Part shown: piece after piece, positions 3,853-36,953 of the stretch
Layout of the letters: every line of letters begins with the position of its first letter
Numbering within the stretch: the first letter of the stretch is position 1
Source: Spirobacillus cienkowskii
GTDB taxonomy: Bacteria > Bdellovibrionota_B > Oligoflexia > Silvanigrellales > Silvanigrellaceae
DNA: 62,907 nucleotides
Reading direction: 5' to 3'
Assembly (NCBI GenBank): GCA_003339605.1
Contig: QOVW01000001.1
Span: 1-62,907 of the forward strand
The notes under the pieces: generated by a model
The model's input: the letters and a program-made list of their open reading frames with translations, nothing else
What the model was told of the DNA's origin: nothing
Databases searched by the model: none
Position numbers and translations under genes: made by a program

Positions 3853-4308
3853 ATGTCTAAAGAAAATAAACAACAATACACATTTAAAAAAGAAGCAGGA
3901 AGAAAAACACTATATCTTAAAAAATATAATGCAAAAATCATTGATCATATGAAAAAAGGCAACAGTTTAGCATCATTTGCTGCCGAAATTAACGTTTCAA
4001 AACAAACCGTGTATAATTGGATAAATGAACATGAAGATTTTAAAGAATCTTTTGAAATAGCGGTAACAGCTAGTCAAGCATTTTGGGAAAGAATAGCATT
4101 AAAAAATGCTACTACATCAAAAGGAAATGGAACACAAATTCAATACCAACTATCGAAAAGATTTAGAGATGAATATGGTGATCTACCGCAAATAAATATA
4201 ATTAATAACAACCAAAATATAAACAAGGACATTCACGATATGTCGAGAGAAGAACTTGAAAAATATGAAAATGAGTTATTGCAAAAGTTAGAACAAAATG
4301 AGCATTGA
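3853..4308 (+). CDS. terS: Phage terminase small subunit
   Basis: 151 residues. A helix-turn-helix near residues 40-65 (GNSLASFAAEINVSKQTVYN) is followed by an amphipathic oligomerisation region, the usual layout of small terminase subunits that recognise the packaging site. It has a near-perfect AAGGAGG ribosome site and overlaps the large-subunit gene by 11 bases, so the two are translated together. The late motif lies upstream. It is on the + strand, far from the portal in gene order although close across the circle. Confidence 0.8.
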   Translation: MSKENKQQYTFKKEAGRKTLYLKKYNAKIIDHMKKGNSLASFAAEINVSKQTVYNWINEHEDFKESFEIAVTASQAFWERIALKNATTSKGNGTQIQYQLSKRFRDEYGDLPQINIINNNQNINKDIHDMSREELEKYENELLQKLEQNEH

Positions 4309-5710
4309 TTTAAAAGAAAGAATTTTAATTCTTGAAAAATTAAATCAAATAAAAAAAAGAAAAAATGAACAAGATGATTTTTTATTGTTTTGTAAAAAAA
4401 GCAGCAAAGATTACGTTTCTAGTTGGGTTCATATTGATATTTGCAGAAGACTAGAAAAATTTGCTCGTGATGTTCGTGAAAAAAAATCTCCGAGATTAAT
4501 GATGTTCATGCCGCCAAGACATGGTAAATCCTTTCATTTTAGTGAAAGATTCCCTGCTTGGGTCATGGGAAAATATAGTAATTTAGAATATATTTCTACT
4601 TCTTATGGACAGACATTGTCTGAGGAATTTTCAGGAAAATGTAGGGATTTAATTAAAGAAGATTTTATTCGAGATATTTTTCCAGATTTTAATTTAAGAA
4701 AAGATTATAAATCACTACAAAAATGGAAAACAACTAACGGCGGTTCTTTTATTGCTGGTAGTGTTGATTCTGGGATTACTGGAAAAGGTGGCCACATAAT
4801 TTCTATTGATGATCCACACAAAAATGGTCAAGAAGCTTTATCAGATACAATGCGAAATAAAGTGATCGAATGGTATAAGTCAACTGTGTTTACAAGAAGA
4901 TATGCTGGTGGTGGGATTTTAATTATACAAACTCGTTGGCACGAAGATGATTTAGCTGGATATTTATTGAGAACTCAGAAGAATGTATGGGAAGTAGTTT
5001 GTTATCCTGCTATAGCAACTCAAGATGAAAAATTTAGAAAAAAAGGAGAAGCGTTATTTCCAGAATTATATCCTCTTGAATTTCTTAAAGAGCAAAAAGA
5101 AACACTTGGAGAATATAATTGGAATGCGCAATATCAACAAGATCCTCTCCCTGTTTCTGGTACTTTATTTAAAGCAGAAGATTGGCGTTATTATCAAAAT
5201 TATTTTGATAATTATGATCGTGTTATTCAGGTTTGGGATTTTAGTTTCAAGGGAGATGATGATAGCGACTACACAGTTGGTCAAGTGTGGGCTAAAAAAG
5301 GTGCAAACTTTTATTTGCTAGATCAAGTTCGGGGAAAATGGGAATTTCCTGAACAAATTGTTCAAGTTCAACTTTTATCAAAAAAACATCCACAATCTTA
5401 TGCAAAATATATAGAAGATAAAGCTAACGGAAGCGCGGTTATTTCTCTTCTTAAAAACAAAATTTCTGGTTTAATTCCGTTTAATCCAAGAACCGATAAA
5501 ATTTCTCGTGCGCTTGTAGTACAGCCGTTTCAGCAAGCGGGAAATCTCTTTCTTCCGAATTCTCAATTGAATCCTTGGGTGAACGAATACGTTTCAGAAC
5601 ATTCTAAATTTCCACGCGCAAAACACGACGATCAAGTCGATTGCACGGCTTTAGCTATTATTCAGTTGTCTAAAGGTTCAATTGATAATTTACGTTCTCT
5701 AGTGAGCTAA
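4298..5710 (+). CDS. terL: Phage terminase large subunit (ATPase and nuclease)
   Basis: 470 residues. Walker A is PPRHGKS (72-78), Walker B IISIDDP with a coupling motif, and IIQTRWHEDDLAG is the conserved motif III region. The C-terminal RNase H-like nuclease shows acidic residues in VWDFSFKGDDDSD, YIEDKANG and HDDQVDCTALA. It pumps phage DNA into proheads through the portal and cuts concatemers. Length and motifs are intact, so packaging should be functional. Overlaps terS. Confidence 0.93.
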   Translation: MSIDLKERILILEKLNQIKKRKNEQDDFLLFCKKSSKDYVSSWVHIDICRRLEKFARDVREKKSPRLMMFMPPRHGKSFHFSERFPAWVMGKYSNLEYISTSYGQTLSEEFSGKCRDLIKEDFIRDIFPDFNLRKDYKSLQKWKTTNGGSFIAGSVDSGITGKGGHIISIDDPHKNGQEALSDTMRNKVIEWYKSTVFTRRYAGGGILIIQTRWHEDDLAGYLLRTQKNVWEVVCYPAIATQDEKFRKKGEALFPELYPLEFLKEQKETLGEYNWNAQYQQDPLPVSGTLFKAEDWRYYQNYFDNYDRVIQVWDFSFKGDDDSDYTVGQVWAKKGANFYLLDQVRGKWEFPEQIVQVQLLSKKHPQSYAKYIEDKANGSAVISLLKNKISGLIPFNPRTDKISRALVVQPFQQAGNLFLPNSQLNPWVNEYVSEHSKFPRAKHDDQVDCTALAIIQLSKGSIDNLRSLVS

Positions 5711-5862: not shown

Positions 5863-6663
5863 ATGTCTCGAACTATTGCAGTATTGAACGAAAAAGGGGG
5901 CGTGGGCAAGACCACAACTATAATTGAATTAGCGTTTCAACTTGGGAACGAAGGTAAAAACGTTTTAGTAGTTGATCTTGATTCTCAAGAGAATTGCACA
6001 AAAATGCTCTTAGGCAAAAAAATGAGTGATACTTTAGAAGAAGGCGAGCAGACAGTTTTTGATGTTTTTATTGATCAGAAGAATAAAATTAATCTAGTTG
6101 ATTTATTAATTCCAGCTATTGAAGCGTGGCAAAATACACTTGTTTTACCAAGCGACTGTAGATTAGCAACAGTAAGTGATCATTTACACAGTCGTTTAAA
6201 CAAAGAACACATATTAAAAAATATACTGAGTAAAATAAAAGATAACTTTGATTATATTTTGATTGATTTAAGTCCTCTTATGAATGTTTTGACAATTAAT
6301 GCGCTAGTTGCTGCTGACTATTACTTAGTGCCGACAGATCTTAGTGTTTATAGTCAAAAAGGTATGCGAACGATTCATGATGTTGCACACATGATAAAAG
6401 AATCAAGAAATAATCCAAATTTAGAACTCTTGGGTGTTTTTGTTACTTCTTTTCAAAAAGGTGGTTCAATTGCTGTCAGAGCTTTATTAGAAGAATTAGA
6501 AGAAGAATACAAAGACAAACTTTTATCTGTAAAAATTCCAGATTCTGTAAAAGTTATAGAAAGCCAGCGTCAAAAATCTCCTGTGGGTTTATTCGCTCCA
6601 GATTCTAACGTTGCTTTAGCATATAAAGAATTATCAAATATTATAGAAGGAGTGCAAGCATGA
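5863..6663 (+). CDS. parA: ParA-type partition ATPase
   Basis: 266 residues. Deviant Walker A KGGVGKTT (11-18), Walker A' VVDLDSQ and Walker B YILIDLSP are typical of the ParA/MinD superfamily. There is no long N-terminal DNA-binding extension, so it is the short (type Ib-like) ParA. It should bind nucleoid DNA with ATP and move plasmid copies apart with the downstream partner. The stop overlaps the start of the partner gene (ATGA). Confidence 0.93.
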   Translation: MSRTIAVLNEKGGVGKTTTIIELAFQLGNEGKNVLVVDLDSQENCTKMLLGKKMSDTLEEGEQTVFDVFIDQKNKINLVDLLIPAIEAWQNTLVLPSDCRLATVSDHLHSRLNKEHILKNILSKIKDNFDYILIDLSPLMNVLTINALVAADYYLVPTDLSVYSQKGMRTIHDVAHMIKESRNNPNLELLGVFVTSFQKGGSIAVRALLEELEEEYKDKLLSVKIPDSVKVIESQRQKSPVGLFAPDSNVALAYKELSNIIEGVQA

Positions 6664-15694: not shown

Positions 15695-18600
15695 TTAAGT
15701 TTCCCGAATACCCAAACCTAATATAGGGTGATAATTAAGTTTTTTATTTTTCCAATAATATGGTACTTTTATTGATGCAAGTTTTTTTAATTTTTTAGAA
15801 TTGTCATCATCGTTTTTTTCTTTTAGTAATATTTTTTCTAATTCTTTTAATTCTAGGCTTAAATTATAGTCAATAAAAAAATTTCTTTTACTTTTTATAA
15901 CATTGTTATGCTCTATAATACTCATGGACACAGCAAAATCATTGTTATGAGTGGGTAAATTTGACTTAGTTTTTAATAACCATCTATCCCATTTTTTTTC
16001 ATTTAAATATGCAGGAAAGTACTCATCTTCAATTGCAAAATTATTGTTTCTAAATCTTGTTTTTATAAAAAAATTTTGTGTCAAACGATGTTTTTTATTT
16101 TTTATAAATTCTTCTAAACTATATTTATTCTTAAAATTTTTAAGCAAATGCTCTCTCAGCTCTATCAGTTCTACTGCGGTTAATGGAGAATCAAGATAAT
16201 TTTTTAATTCTAGCAAACAAAAACTCGAGTCAATTTTTTTGGCAACTTCAGCAAAGATTGCTTTTTCTGCATCTCGAATACGCGTAATTACAATATCTTT
16301 TTTTATTTCCAACTCAATTCCAGCATTTAATAATTGTTCTTCGACTTTTCTATATACTTCATAATCAATATTATCTTTTTTAGGATAATCAGCCTTTCGC
16401 AGTGCACGCCAACCAAAATGTGAAAACACCCCAAGTTTTGCATCCGTTTCTACGCCAGGATATGCCCAACTATTTGGTTTTTCTTTTTTGCTGTGACTCT
16501 CAAACCAAGTTTGCGAAGAAAATCTTAATATTCCTATGTTTGGTCCGGTTGGCAAACACTGAGGGCGATGCCGTAACACCCTTCCCGAAGCCTGCACAAT
16601 AGAACGGGTTGAGCACGGATCAAGAATTGTCCAATCGTAATCATGATCACGACCCGTTTCTTGAATACTTGTTGTAGAAACAAGCATCATCACATTTTTT
16701 GGAAAATCATTTTGTTCATACCATTTTTGAAATTCAGGAGAATTCAAAAGTATTTCTGGATCGTTGCAATTTTCAGATCTTTTTAAACCTTTATCTAAAA
16801 AGCTTTCGACACGTCTTCTATCAACAAAATTTAAATAACTATGATAACAAAACACTGCAATTTTTAACTCACTTTTTGATTTTTCTTCATCCATTAACCA
16901 TTTTGCAAAATCACGACAAATATGCGTGCGATTCCACCTGACAAAACCAATTGAAAATCTAAAAGAGTTGTTTTTTACCATATATGAATGTCTTAAATGC
17001 ATGCGCTCTGCGGCATTCAGCACAATGTTAAAATTTTCTTCCTCAAAATTTTTCTTATCTTTTACTTCAATAAATTCAGCATAATGTTTTTCTGGTGATT
17101 TTTTTAAATAATTGCAGTGATTTAATAAAAATTCATTGTAATATTTGTTAAATTCATCATTATTATTTATAGGCATTAATTTTGCAGAGCTGCATGAACT
17201 ATAATTACTACCTAAGCAGACAATTATATTTTGTTCATTGTTATTTTTTAAATTTCTATCTTTAACGCCATCTAAAAAAGCTTCATACAATTTTTGCACA
17301 ATAATATTTTGGACACTTGCAGACGATAACACAATATTTCTTCCGTAAAACCCCGTTAAGTAAACCAACCGACCAATACTTACCAAATCAGATGCTGCAA
17401 AAGAATCTATCTCATCAATTGCCAAATCCGAAGTCATCAAGCGCAATGCCATAAATGATTCACTGCCTCGTATAATTTCTGCGCCTGAAATTAAATGATC
17501 TATTGTTGCCACAACAATAGGTGTAGATAAAATTACTTCTTGGGTTTTATTTAAAAATGGGATGCTTTTATTATTACTTTTTCCACCAATTACAAAATTA
17601 GCGTCATCGAGTTCTGCTAAAAGCTGCGGAGAATTTGAGCTGCCATCTTGTGGATCATACATCAAATCATTATTTTCAGCTTGAGACTCCCAAATTTCTC
17701 GAGTTAAACGATCACCAACCACCACAGCAACGTCGGATTCATCATACAATTTTTTATATTCACTACCAGTTTTTAACGTTAAGCTTCGTAAACCTAATCC
17801 TAAAGAATATCTCAGTTTATGATCTTGTGCTGCGGCAGAACATGCTAAAGCAATGGCACGTGTTTTTCCACTTCCAGAAGATGAAGTCAACACACAAAAA
17901 ACTTGCGCAGATGCATTTTCTTTTTTTAATTGATCAATTTTATGATACACTTCATGCTGCCATAAAAATCGTGCATTCTCAGGTTTTGTAGATTTTAATG
18001 GCATTGCCGCAGAAAACGCTTCACTGTTTAAAAAAATGCTGTTAAAATAAACTTTAGTGTAATGCGCTACTTTATTTAAATGAACGTCTAAAGTGTCTGC
18101 ATAATATTTTTCATCATTTTGCAAAATTGTATTTGTAAAAATTGTAGAATTTAATGATAAAGAATCACCTAAAAATTTTTCTTTTTTTTCTGATCCCATG
18201 TAGTCAGAAATAATAAGAAGTGGTCTTAAATAATTTGGAACATAGGTATCAATAAAACTTTTATTATTTAAATTGTTTTGCAAATATTTTGCAATAAAAC
18301 CACATTCTTTTGCAACCAATGCACACCAAGATTGCGTTCCTGTATTATCCCAAGGTTTTTTACCTTCTTTTAATGTTAAAAAATTTAAAAATTCTTCAAG
18401 CAACTCTTTTTCTAAAATTTTTGAAGAGTCAACAAATTCTGCACGCCAAAAGTTTTTAACACCAGAGCAAACTCGCAAATCTTTTGCTTCTGGTAATTTG
18501 TGATGAGTGAGCACAAGCCATAAAACATATTCAATAACTTTTGATTGATGAGAATTACTCAATAAAAAGTTACTAAATTGTGGCCAAGGATCACGAATTG

Positions 18601-19228
18601 CTGTTTTGCAATACTTATTTAAACTACTTTTAATAATATTAAGATAATTATCGGAATTTTCAGAAAAACATTTGTGCACATTCTCTTCGTTTGATAGTTG
18701 CTGAAATATAAAATTATCATCCATATTATTTTTTATAATACCATAAATAATTAAACATGATACAAGCTCATGTCGAACCACATCTTTTTTAATTTTATAG
18801 TTACCGTTTTTAGAAAGTGCGTTATTGAGCTTTTCTTGAAAGCCAACTGTTGCCTGGCCAAGATCATGGAATAAAGCAGACAATTTTAAAATAGAAAGCA
18901 AAAACTGCTCTTCATCTGATTTAAAATACAATTCCACTTCATGCTGCATTTTTGTTATAGAATAACTGTATTCACCATTTTCATTATAATGTATTTTATT
19001 TCCAACATGAAAAAGAAGTTTTATATCATTATATTTATCAATTTTGTAACAAGTAATTGCTGTTTTTTTACTTGAATTTTTTATAAGTAAATCGCGAAAA
19101 TCTTGTAATTCCTCATCAGATATATTACCGATCCATGTACGTCTAGCAATTTGTTTTAATTTTGACAAATTTTTTTTCGTGTCAGGTAATGAATCTTTGG
19201 TGCATTCGCTCACGCACAAAATTAACAT
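15695..19228 (-). CDS. cas3f: Type I-F Cas2-3 fusion (helicase-nuclease)
   Basis: 1177 residues. The first about 95 match the Cas2-like domain of I-F Cas2-3 (ILCVSECTKDSLPDTKK, ARRTWIG, KKTAITCYKI). HD nuclease: H121-D122 in LFHDLGQATVGFQ, H153 in RHELVS, HH in VLTHHKLP; the usual Lys of HDxGK is Gln125. Superfamily 2 helicase: Walker A SSSGSGKT near 450, the family block LGLGLRSLTLKTG, DEID near 604, LSSAS, and motif VI QASGRVLRHRP near 882. Length fits the family and no frameshift is seen. It normally degrades DNA marked by the Csy complex and partners Cas1; neither Cas1 nor Csy1-3 is encoded here. Ribosome site AAGGAGAT. Confidence 0.92.
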   Translation of the reverse strand: MLILCVSECTKDSLPDTKKNLSKLKQIARRTWIGNISDEELQDFRDLLIKNSSKKTAITCYKIDKYNDIKLLFHVGNKIHYNENGEYSYSITKMQHEVELYFKSDEEQFLLSILKLSALFHDLGQATVGFQEKLNNALSKNGNYKIKKDVVRHELVSCLIIYGIIKNNMDDNFIFQQLSNEENVHKCFSENSDNYLNIIKSSLNKYCKTAIRDPWPQFSNFLLSNSHQSKVIEYVLWLVLTHHKLPEAKDLRVCSGVKNFWRAEFVDSSKILEKELLEEFLNFLTLKEGKKPWDNTGTQSWCALVAKECGFIAKYLQNNLNNKSFIDTYVPNYLRPLLIISDYMGSEKKEKFLGDSLSLNSTIFTNTILQNDEKYYADTLDVHLNKVAHYTKVYFNSIFLNSEAFSAAMPLKSTKPENARFLWQHEVYHKIDQLKKENASAQVFCVLTSSSGSGKTRAIALACSAAAQDHKLRYSLGLGLRSLTLKTGSEYKKLYDESDVAVVVGDRLTREIWESQAENNDLMYDPQDGSSNSPQLLAELDDANFVIGGKSNNKSIPFLNKTQEVILSTPIVVATIDHLISGAEIIRGSESFMALRLMTSDLAIDEIDSFAASDLVSIGRLVYLTGFYGRNIVLSSASVQNIIVQKLYEAFLDGVKDRNLKNNNEQNIIVCLGSNYSSCSSAKLMPINNNDEFNKYYNEFLLNHCNYLKKSPEKHYAEFIEVKDKKNFEEENFNIVLNAAERMHLRHSYMVKNNSFRFSIGFVRWNRTHICRDFAKWLMDEEKSKSELKIAVFCYHSYLNFVDRRRVESFLDKGLKRSENCNDPEILLNSPEFQKWYEQNDFPKNVMMLVSTTSIQETGRDHDYDWTILDPCSTRSIVQASGRVLRHRPQCLPTGPNIGILRFSSQTWFESHSKKEKPNSWAYPGVETDAKLGVFSHFGWRALRKADYPKKDNIDYEVYRKVEEQLLNAGIELEIKKDIVITRIRDAEKAIFAEVAKKIDSSFCLLELKNYLDSPLTAVELIELREHLLKNFKNKYSLEEFIKNKKHRLTQNFFIKTRFRNNNFAIEDEYFPAYLNEKKWDRWLLKTKSNLPTHNNDFAVSMSIIEHNNVIKSKRNFFIDYNLSLELKELEKILLKEKNDDDNSKKLKKLASIKVPYYWKNKKLNYHPILGLGIRET

Positions 19229-19540: not shown

Positions 19541-20092
19541 TTATTTTTTAATATTTTTGTATAGTTCACAAAATTTTGAGAGTGCAGCAAATTTTGCGTT
19601 AGCGCAATTTGTAAATTTTTGGAATGAGTCATCTTCTTTGCAATAATCAATATTATACTCTTCAAGTAACTCAATAAAGTCATTAGAATTATGAACCTGT
19701 TTATTTAATTCATCAAGAGCAGATTCTAAAAAATTATCTTTTAATTCATGATACGGCTTTTTTGAGTATTGTTCACATAAAAAATCATACGCATATTGTT
19801 TATCAAATTCTAGCAAACTTTGCTTAATAGAAAGAGGAACTTTACTATATAGATATGGCAAATTATCAATTGTGTTCAAAAGCCATTTCAGCATATTATC
19901 TCGATCATTTATTAAAATAAGCTCTCCCAAATCTCCCGTTAAAAAAACATGATTTTTTATAAAAGTTAATCTAAAATAATAATAAAAACTATCTGGATTT
20001 TTACACACAAAAGTTTTAGAATTTTCATGATCGCATTCGACTGTTAATATATGATTCTCAAAACACTTTATAATATCAATATTATTGCTCAT
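19541..20092 (-). CDS. Phage protein of unknown function in the cas operon
   Basis: 183 residues. The segment FYYYFRLTFIKNHVFLTGDL followed by GELIL resembles a motif I know from uncharacterised phage proteins (aromatic, R-hydrophobic, then TGDxG). The C-terminal part is acidic and helical with Cys residues. It sits 31 bp downstream of cas6f and 11 bp upstream of the small GRP/HTH gene, with an AAGGAAG ribosome site, so it is cotranscribed with the Cas genes. It is not a recognisable Csy protein. Confidence 0.6.
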   Translation of the reverse strand: MSNNIDIIKCFENHILTVECDHENSKTFVCKNPDSFYYYFRLTFIKNHVFLTGDLGELILINDRDNMLKWLLNTIDNLPYLYSKVPLSIKQSLLEFDKQYAYDFLCEQYSKKPYHELKDNFLESALDELNKQVHNSNDFIELLEEYNIDYCKEDDSFQKFTNCANAKFAALSKFCELYKNIKK

Positions 20093-20123: not shown

Positions 20124-20711
20124 TTAAAAATGCGGAACGCCCAAACCTTTAGGTGCAAGACCATAACCTGAAAATTTTAATTCTTCTTGGGAATTAAAAT
20201 CAATTTCTGCTAGTTCTCGTGCAATAAAAAGCGTATAATTTCCTAAGTATATAGTATGAATATCCTTTTTTTGCACGATACTTTCGATTGATTTTTTAAG
20301 CTTTTCTCTGTCAAAAGGGAGATTTTTTCGAGTAGCTCTTCTTTTCATCCTATCTAAATAATTGGGGCTTAGTTTTTCCGTTACGCGATCTCTGTAAAAT
20401 CTATAATAAGTATTTACATCATCCGGCACTAAATCAATATTGCTTATTTCAATTAAATTACGATCTGAAAAATTTTTTAATAATTCCGCATTTCGCATGA
20501 ATAATAAAACTCCCCAATCATTTTCATTTGCAAAAAAACGGATTGAATTTCCAATGTTTTTTTCGTTCCAATTTGGAAATGAAACCGCAATTTTTCCTTC
20601 AGATTGATTGATAGTATTGAAAAAAAACTTAAAAATATTTCTAATATCTACATTGTTTTTAAAATCTGGAAGCATAAATATTTTAATTTCAAAATAACAA
20701 TCTAAAAACAT
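20124..20711 (-). CDS. cas6f: Cas6f (Csy4)-like protein, catalytic residues apparently lost
   Basis: 195 residues, the family length (about 187). Matching features: KIAVSFP at 40-46 (IGVSFP in Csy4), the Arg-rich helix SPNYLDRMKRRATRK at 115-129 that holds the repeat hairpin, and the C-terminal SGYGLAPKGLGVPHF (YGLSKGGFVPWF in Csy4). By hand alignment the catalytic histidine (Csy4 His29) falls in KFFFN, with no His. The loop carrying Csy4 Ser148 is shortened to IYLGNY, with no Ser. It may therefore bind but not cut the hairpins; nearby residues could substitute. Csy4 normally cleaves pre-crRNA at the base of the stem. Confidence 0.8.
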   Translation of the reverse strand: MFLDCYFEIKIFMLPDFKNNVDIRNIFKFFFNTINQSEGKIAVSFPNWNEKNIGNSIRFFANENDWGVLLFMRNAELLKNFSDRNLIEISNIDLVPDDVNTYYRFYRDRVTEKLSPNYLDRMKRRATRKNLPFDREKLKKSIESIVQKKDIHTIYLGNYTLFIARELAEIDFNSQEELKFSGYGLAPKGLGVPHF

Positions 20712-20804: not shown

Positions 20805-21827
20805 TTACAACTCTTTATTAAAATTTCTATAATTATCATCAATCATTTTTCGTAAATTTTGTTTGATATAATTACAACGTTTTTCATCATTATTAAAATC
20901 AGAGCATTGCATTCTATAAGCAAAAGGTTCTATTAAATTAGAATCAGAATATGCGCTTATTAATTCAGAAAAATCTGAAAATAATTTATCATCATTATCA
21001 ACTGCTGCTGCTATGAAAACTTTTTTAATATTTTCGTCATCTTCAGATTCTAAAAAATCTTTAAAAGCGGTTTCGTAGTCTCTAATTAAATTGCTTAGAT
21101 CTTTTTCTACTAAATTAGATAAAGATGGAAAAATAATTTTAAAATCCCAGTAATTAAATTCATGAACACTAAAAAGACGTTCTAAATTGTAAAAGTCTTC
21201 ACTTCTTTTATTTGTTTCTAGATCTAATTCGTTTTGCGACAAACAATAGTGCTTATTTTTAAAATCACATTTATCTTCAAGTTTTTTTCGTTTTTCAAAT
21301 TCATAATAATCAACTATAATGCATTCCTTTTTATCAATATTAATAAAAAAATTAATATATTCAAATTCATAAGACCATTTTTCTGGGTTTTCATGATTAA
21401 ATGAATCAAAATATGCGTTATTTTCTCTTTGTATTCTTAAAAATAAAGACTCTGCGTAAGCTAAAGGTTTCATTATTTCTTGATAATCTTTGACCAATAA
21501 ATTTGCAATTTTTTGACATTTATCTAAATGTTCTTTAGATTTTGGATCAAAATTAATTTGTAAATTTTCTGATTCTAAATCGTCTTCATTTTTAAAATTT
21601 AATTCAGACAATTTATGTTGCATTAAAAAATTTACTTCTTCTAAAACTTTTTTTGAGTCAACTATTTCTCCAAAATCTGAATTGATACTATTTATAAAAT
21701 CATCTTGACGCTCTGCTTCGCTATAATAATTAGATAATACATCGTAAACAATTTCGTCTGATAATTCCAAAAAATCTTTCTCTATAAATTTTAAATCGTT
21801 AGATGGGTTTTTTATCAAAATTTCCAT
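20805..21827 (-). CDS. Acidic protein at the head of the cas operon, unknown function
   Basis: 340 residues, strikingly rich in Asp and Glu throughout with few Arg, mostly helical by composition and with no signal peptide. It shows none of the RNA-binding or Gly-rich features of Cas7/Csy3, nor the Csy1/Csy2 patterns. Such acidity is common in DNA-mimic and anti-defence proteins, or it could bind the basic Cas6f. AAAGGAATT ribosome site; second gene of the operon starting at 22.5 kb. No family recognised. Confidence 0.55.
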   Translation of the reverse strand: MEILIKNPSNDLKFIEKDFLELSDEIVYDVLSNYYSEAERQDDFINSINSDFGEIVDSKKVLEEVNFLMQHKLSELNFKNEDDLESENLQINFDPKSKEHLDKCQKIANLLVKDYQEIMKPLAYAESLFLRIQRENNAYFDSFNHENPEKWSYEFEYINFFINIDKKECIIVDYYEFEKRKKLEDKCDFKNKHYCLSQNELDLETNKRSEDFYNLERLFSVHEFNYWDFKIIFPSLSNLVEKDLSNLIRDYETAFKDFLESEDDENIKKVFIAAAVDNDDKLFSDFSELISAYSDSNLIEPFAYRMQCSDFNNDEKRCNYIKQNLRKMIDDNYRNFNKEL

Positions 21828-34801: not shown

Positions 34802-35347
34802 TTGGAAAAGAATAATGATGACGATAAAATTTTAGATATTAAAATTAAATCTATCGAATTTAACGAGTCTGAATTAAAAGAACAAATGCTTTCGCTAGAT
34901 AAAAAAAGAGATCGTGTTTGGATTATGCTTACTTTGTTTAGTTCTTTTGTTTTTATTCAGTTAAAAAAACATGATTTAAACATAATTTTCAATTCTTTTT
35001 TTAACATATTATTTTTAATTCTTACTATATTTTATTTTGTAAATATAATTATAATTTTTTTGTATACTTACAAATATGAGCAAGTAGAGAATTCACCATG
35101 TTTAAGCAAAGACCAGATATTTCCTGAAATATCTAAAAATAAAGATATTTTAATTTTTAAAGACAAATTCAAAAGTTTATCTTATTTTAAAAGATTTACC
35201 ATTAATTTAAAGTATGAAATTGCCGACGATAAAATTAAACGTAATAATACAAAGTCAGCATATATTAAGATTATGCAAAAAATAGTTTTTTTTCATTTCT
35301 TTTTGTCTTTAACAATTATATTTATAGGTGAGTTTTATGTCAGATAA
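34802..35347 (+). CDS. Membrane protein, SLATT/PycTM-like layout
   Basis: 181 residues from a TTG start; AGAAGGG lies upstream. An ATG at 34794 is out of frame by one base in a six-T run, so a sequencing or real one-base change may hide the true start. Hydrophobic segments at about 45-60, 65-95 and 155-175 flank a cytoplasmic part. The helix before the last segment (IADDKIKRNNTKSAYIKIMQ) follows the N-x-x-K pattern of SLATT-type and Pycsar TM effectors. Could be a defence or exclusion effector; the match is weak. Confidence 0.45.
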   Translation: MEKNNDDDKILDIKIKSIEFNESELKEQMLSLDKKRDRVWIMLTLFSSFVFIQLKKHDLNIIFNSFFNILFLILTIFYFVNIIIIFLYTYKYEQVENSPCLSKDQIFPEISKNKDILIFKDKFKSLSYFKRFTINLKYEIADDKIKRNNTKSAYIKIMQKIVFFHFFLSLTIIFIGEFYVR

Positions 35348-35498
35348 TGAAAATGATAAGATAGAAAAAGATACCGTCTCTTTAAAAACTGAAGATGATA
35401 CTGAATTAGAATTTCCTAAAACTAAATTCGTGTATATTAAAAAGTCTATCTCACCAGAAGAGTTAAAAAAATTAATGTTAAGAGAAAGAGAAAAATAA
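35337..35498 (+). CDS. Small acidic protein
   Basis: 53 residues starting MSDNENDKIEKD, overlapping the end of the membrane-protein gene by 11 bases with AGGTGAG upstream. Highly charged, no domain. The overlap suggests translational coupling with the membrane protein, perhaps as a regulator or partner. It is followed by the long terminator hairpin. Confidence 0.5.
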   Translation: MSDNENDKIEKDTVSLKTEDDTELEFPKTKFVYIKKSISPEELKKLMLREREK

Positions 35499-35525
35499 AA
35501 TAACTTTTTAAAAACTAAAAATTGC

Positions 35526-35579
35526 AAGATAAAAAATGTTTATTTATGCTTTATAGCATAAATAAACATTTTTTATCTT
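35526..35579. terminator. Perfect 25-bp hairpin, bidirectional terminator
   Basis: A 25-bp stem from AAGATAAAAAATG to its exact complement ending ATTTTTTATCTT, with TTAT at the tip. A/T runs are present on both strands, so it can terminate in both directions. Its inner arms contain TATTTATGCT/AGCATAAATA, the same unit as in the palindrome before parM, so it may also be part of the partition site. Confidence 0.7.
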
Positions 35580-35664
35580 TTAAATATGTTTTAAAATATT
35601 TTTATTTATGTTATAAATAATATGTAACAAATTTTAGCATAAATATTTATGCTATATAAAACAA
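35580..35664. promoter_or_regulatory. Candidate centromere (parC) and parM operator
   Basis: A perfect 20-bp palindrome, TAGCATAAAT joined to ATTTATGCTA, lies at 35635-35654. Related half-sites occur at 35542-35563 inside the hairpin and degenerate ones near 35610 (TTTATGTTATAAATA). Repeated sites directly upstream of a ParM/ParR operon are where ParR binds and autoregulates. Confidence 0.55.
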
Positions 35665-35676
35665 ATGGAGGATACT

Positions 35677-36675
35677 ATGGAGTTATTACCAAGTTTTATC
35701 TGTTCAGCCCCGAAAGAAAAAGAGTTGCTAAATAAACAGTCAATTCTAATAGAAGACAAAGGTATTGAAACAATTGTCGGAGAACTAGCGCAAGTGTTAA
35801 ATCCGCACAGTCCAAGAACATATGGTGGCGCACTCGAAAGCGATCACTATCAAACACTTTTAAAAGCAGGTTTAGCAAGAGCTTTGGGCGAAGGAAAACA
35901 TGTTGTGTCTCTTGCTTTAAGTGTTCCATTTCAATACATGGATCAGTTCAGAGATCAAATCGGAGACATAACTTTAGCAAAGAATAAAACAAGTCTTTTA
36001 AAAGAAATAGTTGCAAATATTAAATTTAAAGACAAATCTACAGATTCAAGTTGGAAAAATTGCGAAATTACAATTCAAGAAGAGCCAACAATTGCATATG
36101 AGTTTTTAGCATCAATGCTTAATATTCCACCAGAGGCGAAAACATTTTTGTATTGGCACATTGGACACGGGGATTGGCAGCAAGCAGCAAGAGTCGACGG
36201 AAAAAACTTGCCAGATTCTTATGCGAGAGTTGAGGGATTATCAGGCGCAATCCAAGTTTTTTCTGAACAACAAAATCTATCATCAAGCGAAGCTATCAAA
36301 TCGTGGCAGCTTGGGAATATGCCGGAAGTTAATGGCATGAATGGAAAAAGGGTTAATTGCATAAGAGAAAAAGAACTCGCAGCTAGACAATTTATAAGAT
36401 CAGTAGTTGGTGAACTATTAAACAAGAATTTACGCTACAAAGATAGAGCAAAAAATATTGTAATTTCTGGTGGTGCTTCAAAAGATGATATATTTATATC
36501 TATATTAAAAGAGATTGCCAAAGGCAACGGTTACAACGTAGTTTTAATGACAGAGCTTGTTGAAGACATTGACCCGACATTTTCTGTCGTTTCTGGTCTT
36601 TCTAAATTAAAGACTGCTTATACACATGTAAGTATCGATATAGGAAACTCTAGCGTAAAAGTGAGCGTTGTATGA
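35677..36675 (+). CDS. parM: Actin-like ParM ATPase, apparently circularly permuted
   Basis: 332 residues from ATG 35677, directly behind GGAGG; an ATG at 35665 overlaps that ribosome site and the frame is closed by a stop just upstream. The protein starts where ordinary ParM/Alp proteins reach residue 25-30 (LLPSFICSAP, TIVGELAQVL). QEEPTIAYE (134-142), phosphate-2-like YWHIGHGDW (159-167) and adenosine motif IVISGGASKDD (261-271) follow in normal order, then EDIDPTFSVVSG. Phosphate-1, normally N-terminal, is at the very end: VSIDIGNSSVKVSVV (318-332). ParM filaments push plasmid copies apart with ParR. Confidence 0.75.
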   Translation: MELLPSFICSAPKEKELLNKQSILIEDKGIETIVGELAQVLNPHSPRTYGGALESDHYQTLLKAGLARALGEGKHVVSLALSVPFQYMDQFRDQIGDITLAKNKTSLLKEIVANIKFKDKSTDSSWKNCEITIQEEPTIAYEFLASMLNIPPEAKTFLYWHIGHGDWQQAARVDGKNLPDSYARVEGLSGAIQVFSEQQNLSSSEAIKSWQLGNMPEVNGMNGKRVNCIREKELAARQFIRSVVGELLNKNLRYKDRAKNIVISGGASKDDIFISILKEIAKGNGYNVVLMTELVEDIDPTFSVVSGLSKLKTAYTHVSIDIGNSSVKVSVV

Positions 36676-36953
36676 GTACGAATGAAAAAAAATTTTATCA
36701 AATGAGATTATCAGATTCTTTAGAAAACCAAGATATATTAAACTTTATTAAATACGCTAAAACTTCTTTTGATAGCTCAAAAATCAATTATCCAAGAGGT
36801 TTAAAATCACAAGCTGATCGGGCTATCTGGTTAATGAATTACGCTTTAGAAATACTCTCTAAAAATAACAAAGTAGAAGGAGCTAGTGTTTTAAAAAGCA
36901 TAGAAAAAGAAGATAAGAACAGTAAAAACGGATTATTTGACTTATTAAGATAA
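36672..36953 (+). CDS. ParR-like partition adaptor
   Basis: 93 residues overlapping parM by four bases (ATGA). The N-terminal half (MRLSDSLENQDILNFIKYAK) fits a ribbon-helix-helix, then LKSQADRAIWLMNYALEIL, with a short charged C-terminal tail ending LFDLLR that could bind ParM filament ends, as ParR tails do. Position after an actin-like ATPase is the main evidence. Confidence 0.6.
   Translation: MSTNEKKFYQMRLSDSLENQDILNFIKYAKTSFDSSKINYPRGLKSQADRAIWLMNYALEILSKNNKVEGASVLKSIEKEDKNSKNGLFDLLR

Follow-up and report, generated by a model that had tools for sequence, protein, structure and literature searches.

Can the actin fold be built from a chain that begins somewhere other than at its phosphate-1 (P1) hairpin? 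From bacteria to humans, actins have been treated as a fold of one fixed chain order, and a conserved permutant would be a natural test case, showing on which parts of that order folding, nucleotide hydrolysis and polymerisation depend. The question is raised by a gene, here given the working name cpAlp, in a contig of Spirobacillus cienkowskii (QOVW01000001.1; the window, below, is the whole stretch of 62,907 nucleotides that was analysed), in which an earlier note had seen a circularly permuted ParM. We conclude that cpAlp is almost certainly a natural circular permutant of a ParM/Alp-type bacterial actin. The fuller reading, in which the displaced hairpin refolds in place and the protein polymerises with ATP and works with an adaptor and a centromere in the segregation of low-copy plasmids and phage-plasmids, is given a probability of about 0.75. 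The features of the gene are as follows.

35677 to 36675, plus strand: circularly permuted actin-like gene cpAlp, 332 amino acids, recognised from its open reading frame (ORF), alignment, profiles and model.
35667 to 35671, plus strand: GGAGG ribosome-binding site, five bases 5' of the ATG at 35677.
36157 to 36183, plus strand: phosphate-2 loop HIGHGDWQQ, residues ~161-169, from the alignment and a residue table.
36460 to 36477, plus strand: adenosine-binding motif VISGGA, residues ~262-267, from the alignment.
36631 to 36663, plus strand: C-terminal P1 motif SIDIGNSSVKV, residues 319-329, which is N-terminal in ordinary actins and pairs with canonical N-termini once the sequence is rotated.

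The coordinates and reading frame given in the earlier note hold, as does the order of motifs that it had described. The N-terminus of cpAlp carries no P1 motif; E142, which resembles the catalytic Glu, then the phosphate-2 loop and then the adenosine motif (ISGGAS) come in the order seen in other actins, and P1 is last, within a C-terminus that reads AYTHVSIDIGNSSVKVSVV and includes SIDIGNSSVKV at residues 319-329 of 332. The start codon is fixed by the GGAGG site, with which an in-frame ATG at 35665 overlaps. Upstream of the ATG the frame closes after only 13 open codons, devoid of a P1 motif, and no P1-like motif is present in the six frames of 34901-35690; on these grounds a hidden upstream N-terminus was rejected, and the absence of an N-terminal P1 does not stem from a mis-called start, in agreement with the note.

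Homologues sharing this order, for which the note had proposed a search, were found in two divergent clades. The permuted order is present in 10 distinct proteins of clade A, carried by phage-plasmids and plasmids of Silvanigrellaceae, Pseudobacteriovorax-like bacteria and Aeromonas plasmids, and in two divergent proteins of clade B; instead of the order of the actin superfamily (P1, phosphate-2, adenosine), P1 is last in all 12 distinct proteins, each of which has a D-x-G-N end. All intact copies read lack an N-terminal P1 and have a C-terminal [LI]D[IV]GN..[LV]K. D321, G323, N324 and K328 are invariant in the eight clade A rows aligned, and the first three remain so after the two clade B proteins are added. 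Among 158 distinct stop-terminated ORFs of at least 200 residues in the collected loci, a P1-like pattern falls within the last 60 residues in 12, and since all 12 belong to the permuted family the C-terminal P1 goes beyond chance. An artefact of annotation or assembly was likewise rejected, as independent records from several genera show the same order.

The closest relatives, 84-85% identical, lie in two IMG/VR contigs (L001 and L002) and are the same proteins as in two genomes of the window's genus (L007, L008). More distant relatives (~30-43% identical) were identified in 9 of 72,556 plasmid records, namely the Pigmentibacter ruber plasmid pGTC16762-3 and eight Aeromonas plasmid records, in a further IMG/VR contig (L012) and in two genomes from a different family within the class (L009, L010), one of which is also present as a Pseudobacteriovorax metagenome-assembled genome (L011). 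Relatives occur in 5 of 58 genomes searched in the phylum; G057, which is of the same species as the window, has none, a pattern that would be expected of a mobile element. An ISKpn9-family element interrupts the permuted gene in plasmid pE31A of Aeromonas media (L043, 1288-3624). The clade B proteins (L037 and L038) were found by searching the 58 genomes with ALP_N (PF17989) and with phrog_691, a broad profile that also has matches in 12 of 14 control genomes. They are 19-20% identical to cpAlp and both start after P1; L037 ends in ALDLGNHTTIGFY followed by eight residues, and L038 in ADFGNSNTVYSFMI. No relative of cpAlp, of L004 (a clade A protein) or of L037 was detected by tblastn in 50,697 phage records, nor any of L037 or L038 in the 72,556 plasmid records, and scans of viral contigs with L037, L038 and an Aeromonas alignment (A5) gave none.

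Canonical and permuted forms coexist, since canonical ALP_N proteins were found in the same genus as clade B (L039, L040) and on another P. ruber plasmid (L052). These belong to the same superfamily as cpAlp but begin with IDSGSSxxK at the usual place and retain the phosphate-2 aspartate. Five ALP_N places were located in the 58 genomes: two canonical ones that match from profile position 2, two permuted ones with matches beginning at 17 and 18, and a fragment that matches from 97. In a tree of nine rotated and seven canonical proteins the permuted ones fall on one side with a support of 82/81 (81% of 200 bootstrap trees), and a single permutation event is favoured on this sequence evidence, the tree being weakened by long branches and modest support. 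Such proteins escape annotation by profiles: members on those annotated plasmid stretches that were examined are labelled hypothetical protein.

If the family arose by permutation, putting the P1 segment first should restore the match to canonical profiles, and sequences rotated in this way were rescored against ALP_N, the curated cut-off of which is 26.3 bits, and phrog_691. The ALP_N score of cpAlp rises from 21.5 bits (profile positions 28-116), short of the cut-off, to 29.6 bits (2-116), and its phrog_691 score from 32.6 to 43.8 bits; when a different 19-residue segment of cpAlp is moved, the scores are 22.3 and 27.1. For L004 the ALP_N score goes from 18.9 to 32.8 and a phrog_691 match of 21.7 appears where there was none, and for L037 the two scores go from 22.8 to 30.2 and from 50.5 to 60.4. 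Because the control segment gives no such rise, the gain is tied to P1 and puts this segment ahead of the remaining chain, L009 excepted. Rotation raises the score against a local profile of seven canonical proteins in 9 of 11 permuted proteins and leaves two unchanged, all scores being low, and with doubled sequences the match spans the junction in 7 of 11. The ALP_N and phrog_691 partition proteins are thus co-linear with native cpAlp from about profile position 28 and with rotated cpAlp from position 2 or 6; cpAlp differs from them in carrying the first ~27 positions, the P1 hairpin, at its C-terminus, and in the replacement of the phosphate-2 aspartate.

An AlphaFold2 model built from six clade A and two clade B rows has a predicted local distance difference test score (pLDDT) of 88.0 and a predicted template modelling score (pTM) of 0.82, none of the five models having a pLDDT below 85.8. 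Its two-domain actin fold was recognised by VIA-align at Z scores of 16.2-19.8 in the 50 matches listed, led by Ta0583 (Z 19.8; 3.1 Å over 280 residues), Dh-cParM1 (19.5) and pCBH ParM (19.0), with pSK41 ParM and Alp7A at 18.6 each, and the best Foldseek match is also Dh-cParM1 (E 8.6e-13). The best BFVD matches are A0A7S5SKK5 (E 3.0e-16) and gp506 of Bacillus phage G (2.4e-14), chain order being left aside in this comparison. A search of solved structures by sequence only, with cpAlp or an eight-row profile, gave chance matches only, and NCBIfam weak matches only. Although pSK41 ParM, Dh-cParM1, pCBH ParM, Alp7A, Alp12 and the archaeal Ta0583 share the fold (Z 17.7-19.8), they have the conventional chain order, and their own N-terminal hairpin is unmatched by the N-terminus of cpAlp. 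In all 50 matches listed, residue 1 of the model pairs with residue 20-65 of the other chain (28 in most actins) and pairing stops at model residue 312-317. The unpaired remainder is one hairpin on each side, the first in the Protein Data Bank (PDB) chains and the last in the model of cpAlp.

The two C-terminal strands of the model (316-322 and 326-331) are predicted with confidence, the blocks of 311-332 scoring 86-91, and in the alignment the N-terminal MELLPSF corresponds to the strand that follows the P1 hairpin, with LPS opposite canonical EPS or FPS. The cut therefore falls behind the P1 hairpin's second strand, and the new ends lie between strands two and three of subdomain IA. In the actin structure this region forms part of the outer surface and, given that residue 1 of the model pairs with approximately actin residue 28, the new ends should face outwards on subdomain IA; no support is found for the idea that the permutation would move them into the nucleotide cleft. 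The structure prediction proposed as a check has hence identified the hairpin as the leftover part of the fold, and the confident model and the short linker lead us to infer that it fills the P1 site.

Taken together, the order conserved in two divergent clades, the rotation test and the alignments of the model to PDB structures support circular permutation as the interpretation of this gene. The beta1-beta2 hairpin bearing P1, which supplies half of the site for ATP, would have left the N-terminus for the C-terminus, where a short linker joins it to the last helix, and it would refold to occupy the position in subdomain IA that it has in ordinary actins. The protein would most likely polymerise with ATP, acting with a co-translated downstream adaptor and upstream centromere repeats, and the outcome would be the segregation of low-copy plasmids and phage-plasmids. 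No permuted actin or ParM was found described in the open literature, a scope outside which most subscription journals fall, and the available portions of PMC12667903, PMC12270681, PMC11929497, PMC3974335, PMC4471445 and PMC4207663 describe none, in line with the remark of the earlier note that no permuted plasmid actin was known.

Several results weigh against this reading. The gain on rotation is small for L038 (ALP_N 28.9 to 31.7, phrog_691 23.6 to 23.9), which exceeds the ALP_N cut-off in its native order, and is lacking in L009 (phrog_691 21.7 to 20.6, no ALP_N match either way), a clear exception in which ~30 residues follow P1. ALP_N picks up just 6 of 8 clade A proteins at a limit of E 0.1, and phrog_691 picks up 5 of 8. 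An earlier model, for which six clade A rows were used, was weak (pLDDT 67.1, pTM 0.54); its pairing pattern was similar. The small ORFs downstream of the actin genes, described below, are poorly conserved, with no Pfam family at a meaningful score and no match to ParR, and partition may not depend on the actin, since the element also encodes a ParA-type ATPase. Finally, the family departs from the actin superfamily at the phosphate-2 aspartate, which is replaced in all 10 rows tabulated (two of them identical, and the position alignment-based): by His in cpAlp, Gln in the other clade A proteins tabulated and Ser in clade B.

The canonical L039, L040 and L052 keep this aspartate, and the aligned catalytic Glu is invariant in the permuted proteins of both clades. 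We take the phosphate-2 aspartate to be D170 in ParM of plasmid R1. The D170A mutant of that protein, affecting an aspartate reported to be essential, leaves static filaments according to the available part of PMC5539076, and D170E raises plasmid loss ~100-fold in the accessible text of PMC5500522. The loss of this residue suggests, at the level of the alignment, that hydrolysis or metal coordination may differ from that of classical ParM, and it makes filament turnover directly testable. A tentative extension, which we consider somewhat improbable, is that the family, permuted once in its history, might form its own branch of the cytomotive actins, in which the move of P1 and the loss of the phosphate-2 aspartate went together and both filament turnover and hydrolysis of the nucleotide depend on a different chemistry or on the adaptor protein.

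With regard to function, two further features flank the gene.

35526 to 35666, strand not assigned: candidate centromere/operator (parC-like), with four of the window's six TATTTATGC sites within 105 base pairs (bp).
36672 to 36953, plus strand: ORF of 93 amino acids, candidate ParR-like adaptor, overlapping the actin stop codon by ATGA, with a small ORF there in relatives.

Two of the four clustered TATTTATGC sites lie inside a perfect 25-bp inverted repeat, and four sites within 110 bp were obtained in none of 200 first-order simulations, the motif having been picked after it was seen. Clusters of TATTTATGC also precede the gene in L001 (all three sites of the locus) and L002 (all six); no comparable family of upstream repeats was found in L004, L005 or L009. 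A small ORF follows the actin gene, overlapping it or close by, in the 12 loci examined, with 8-base overlaps in Aeromonas. The small overlapping downstream ORF and the upstream cluster of repeats make the layout fit the anatomy of a parC-parM-parR operon, from which a role in segregation may be proposed. In one Aeromonas plasmid of the MOBH type the permuted gene stands near mobI/mobH, much as canonical parM/stbA genes adjoin mobI on Pseudoalteromonas and Geoalkalibacter plasmids. Of the name ParM used in the earlier note, membership of the actin family stands, and ParM function was a guess, the carrier being a phage-plasmid that has a second candidate partition system of the ParA type. This element encodes a terminase large subunit (4298-5710), the ParA-type P-loop ATPase (AAA_31, E 5.3e-46; 5863-6663) and a phage integrase (12517-13536).

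Such a setting lends some weight to the alternative that the permuted actin serves phage biology, positioning replicating phage DNA, rather than plasmid partition. A parallel is offered by prophage CGP3 of Corynebacterium glutamicum, the AlpC of which is a conventional actin. As far as the accessible accounts go, AlpC, AlpA and alpS combine an actin, an adaptor and DNA sites on a phage element, as the cpAlp locus may do, and AlpC is needed for efficient viral DNA replication according to the available part of PMC4446434. Against this, relatives are found on plasmids whose displayed stretches hold nothing obviously phage-related, among them the MOBH Aeromonas plasmids, and the L037 contig carries a TraI-like relaxase, identified by eye; we regard a phage role as unlikely. 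Considerably less probable is a strand-swapped polymer, in which the P1 hairpin of one subunit would complete the nucleotide site of its neighbour and the permutation would drive assembly. The position of the hairpin at a free chain end and the ~30 further residues after it in L009 and L010 are in keeping with such an exchange, but only a short linker separates the hairpin (316) from the last helix (300-308), and the monomer prediction is confident precisely there. A degenerate actin that has lost its N-terminal P1, its C-terminal motif being coincidental or an adaptor-binding tail, would account for the missing phosphate-2 aspartate and the low native profile scores but is scarcely credible in view of D-x-G-N at all 12 C-termini, the rotation gains over the control and the catalytic-Glu-like residue that is kept.

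Apart from the permuted ParM/Alp-type actin, the phage-plasmid carries type I-F genes of a clustered regularly interspaced short palindromic repeats (CRISPR) system on the minus strand (15695-19228 and 20124-20711), coding for a Cas2-Cas3 fusion and Csy4, beside which two ORFs (19541-20092 and 20805-21827) have no Pfam match. Copies of ACGCTAAAACCTTAGTT are present at both ends of the contig (1-60 and 62848-62907) and are perhaps iterons of a circular replicon that was broken at assembly.
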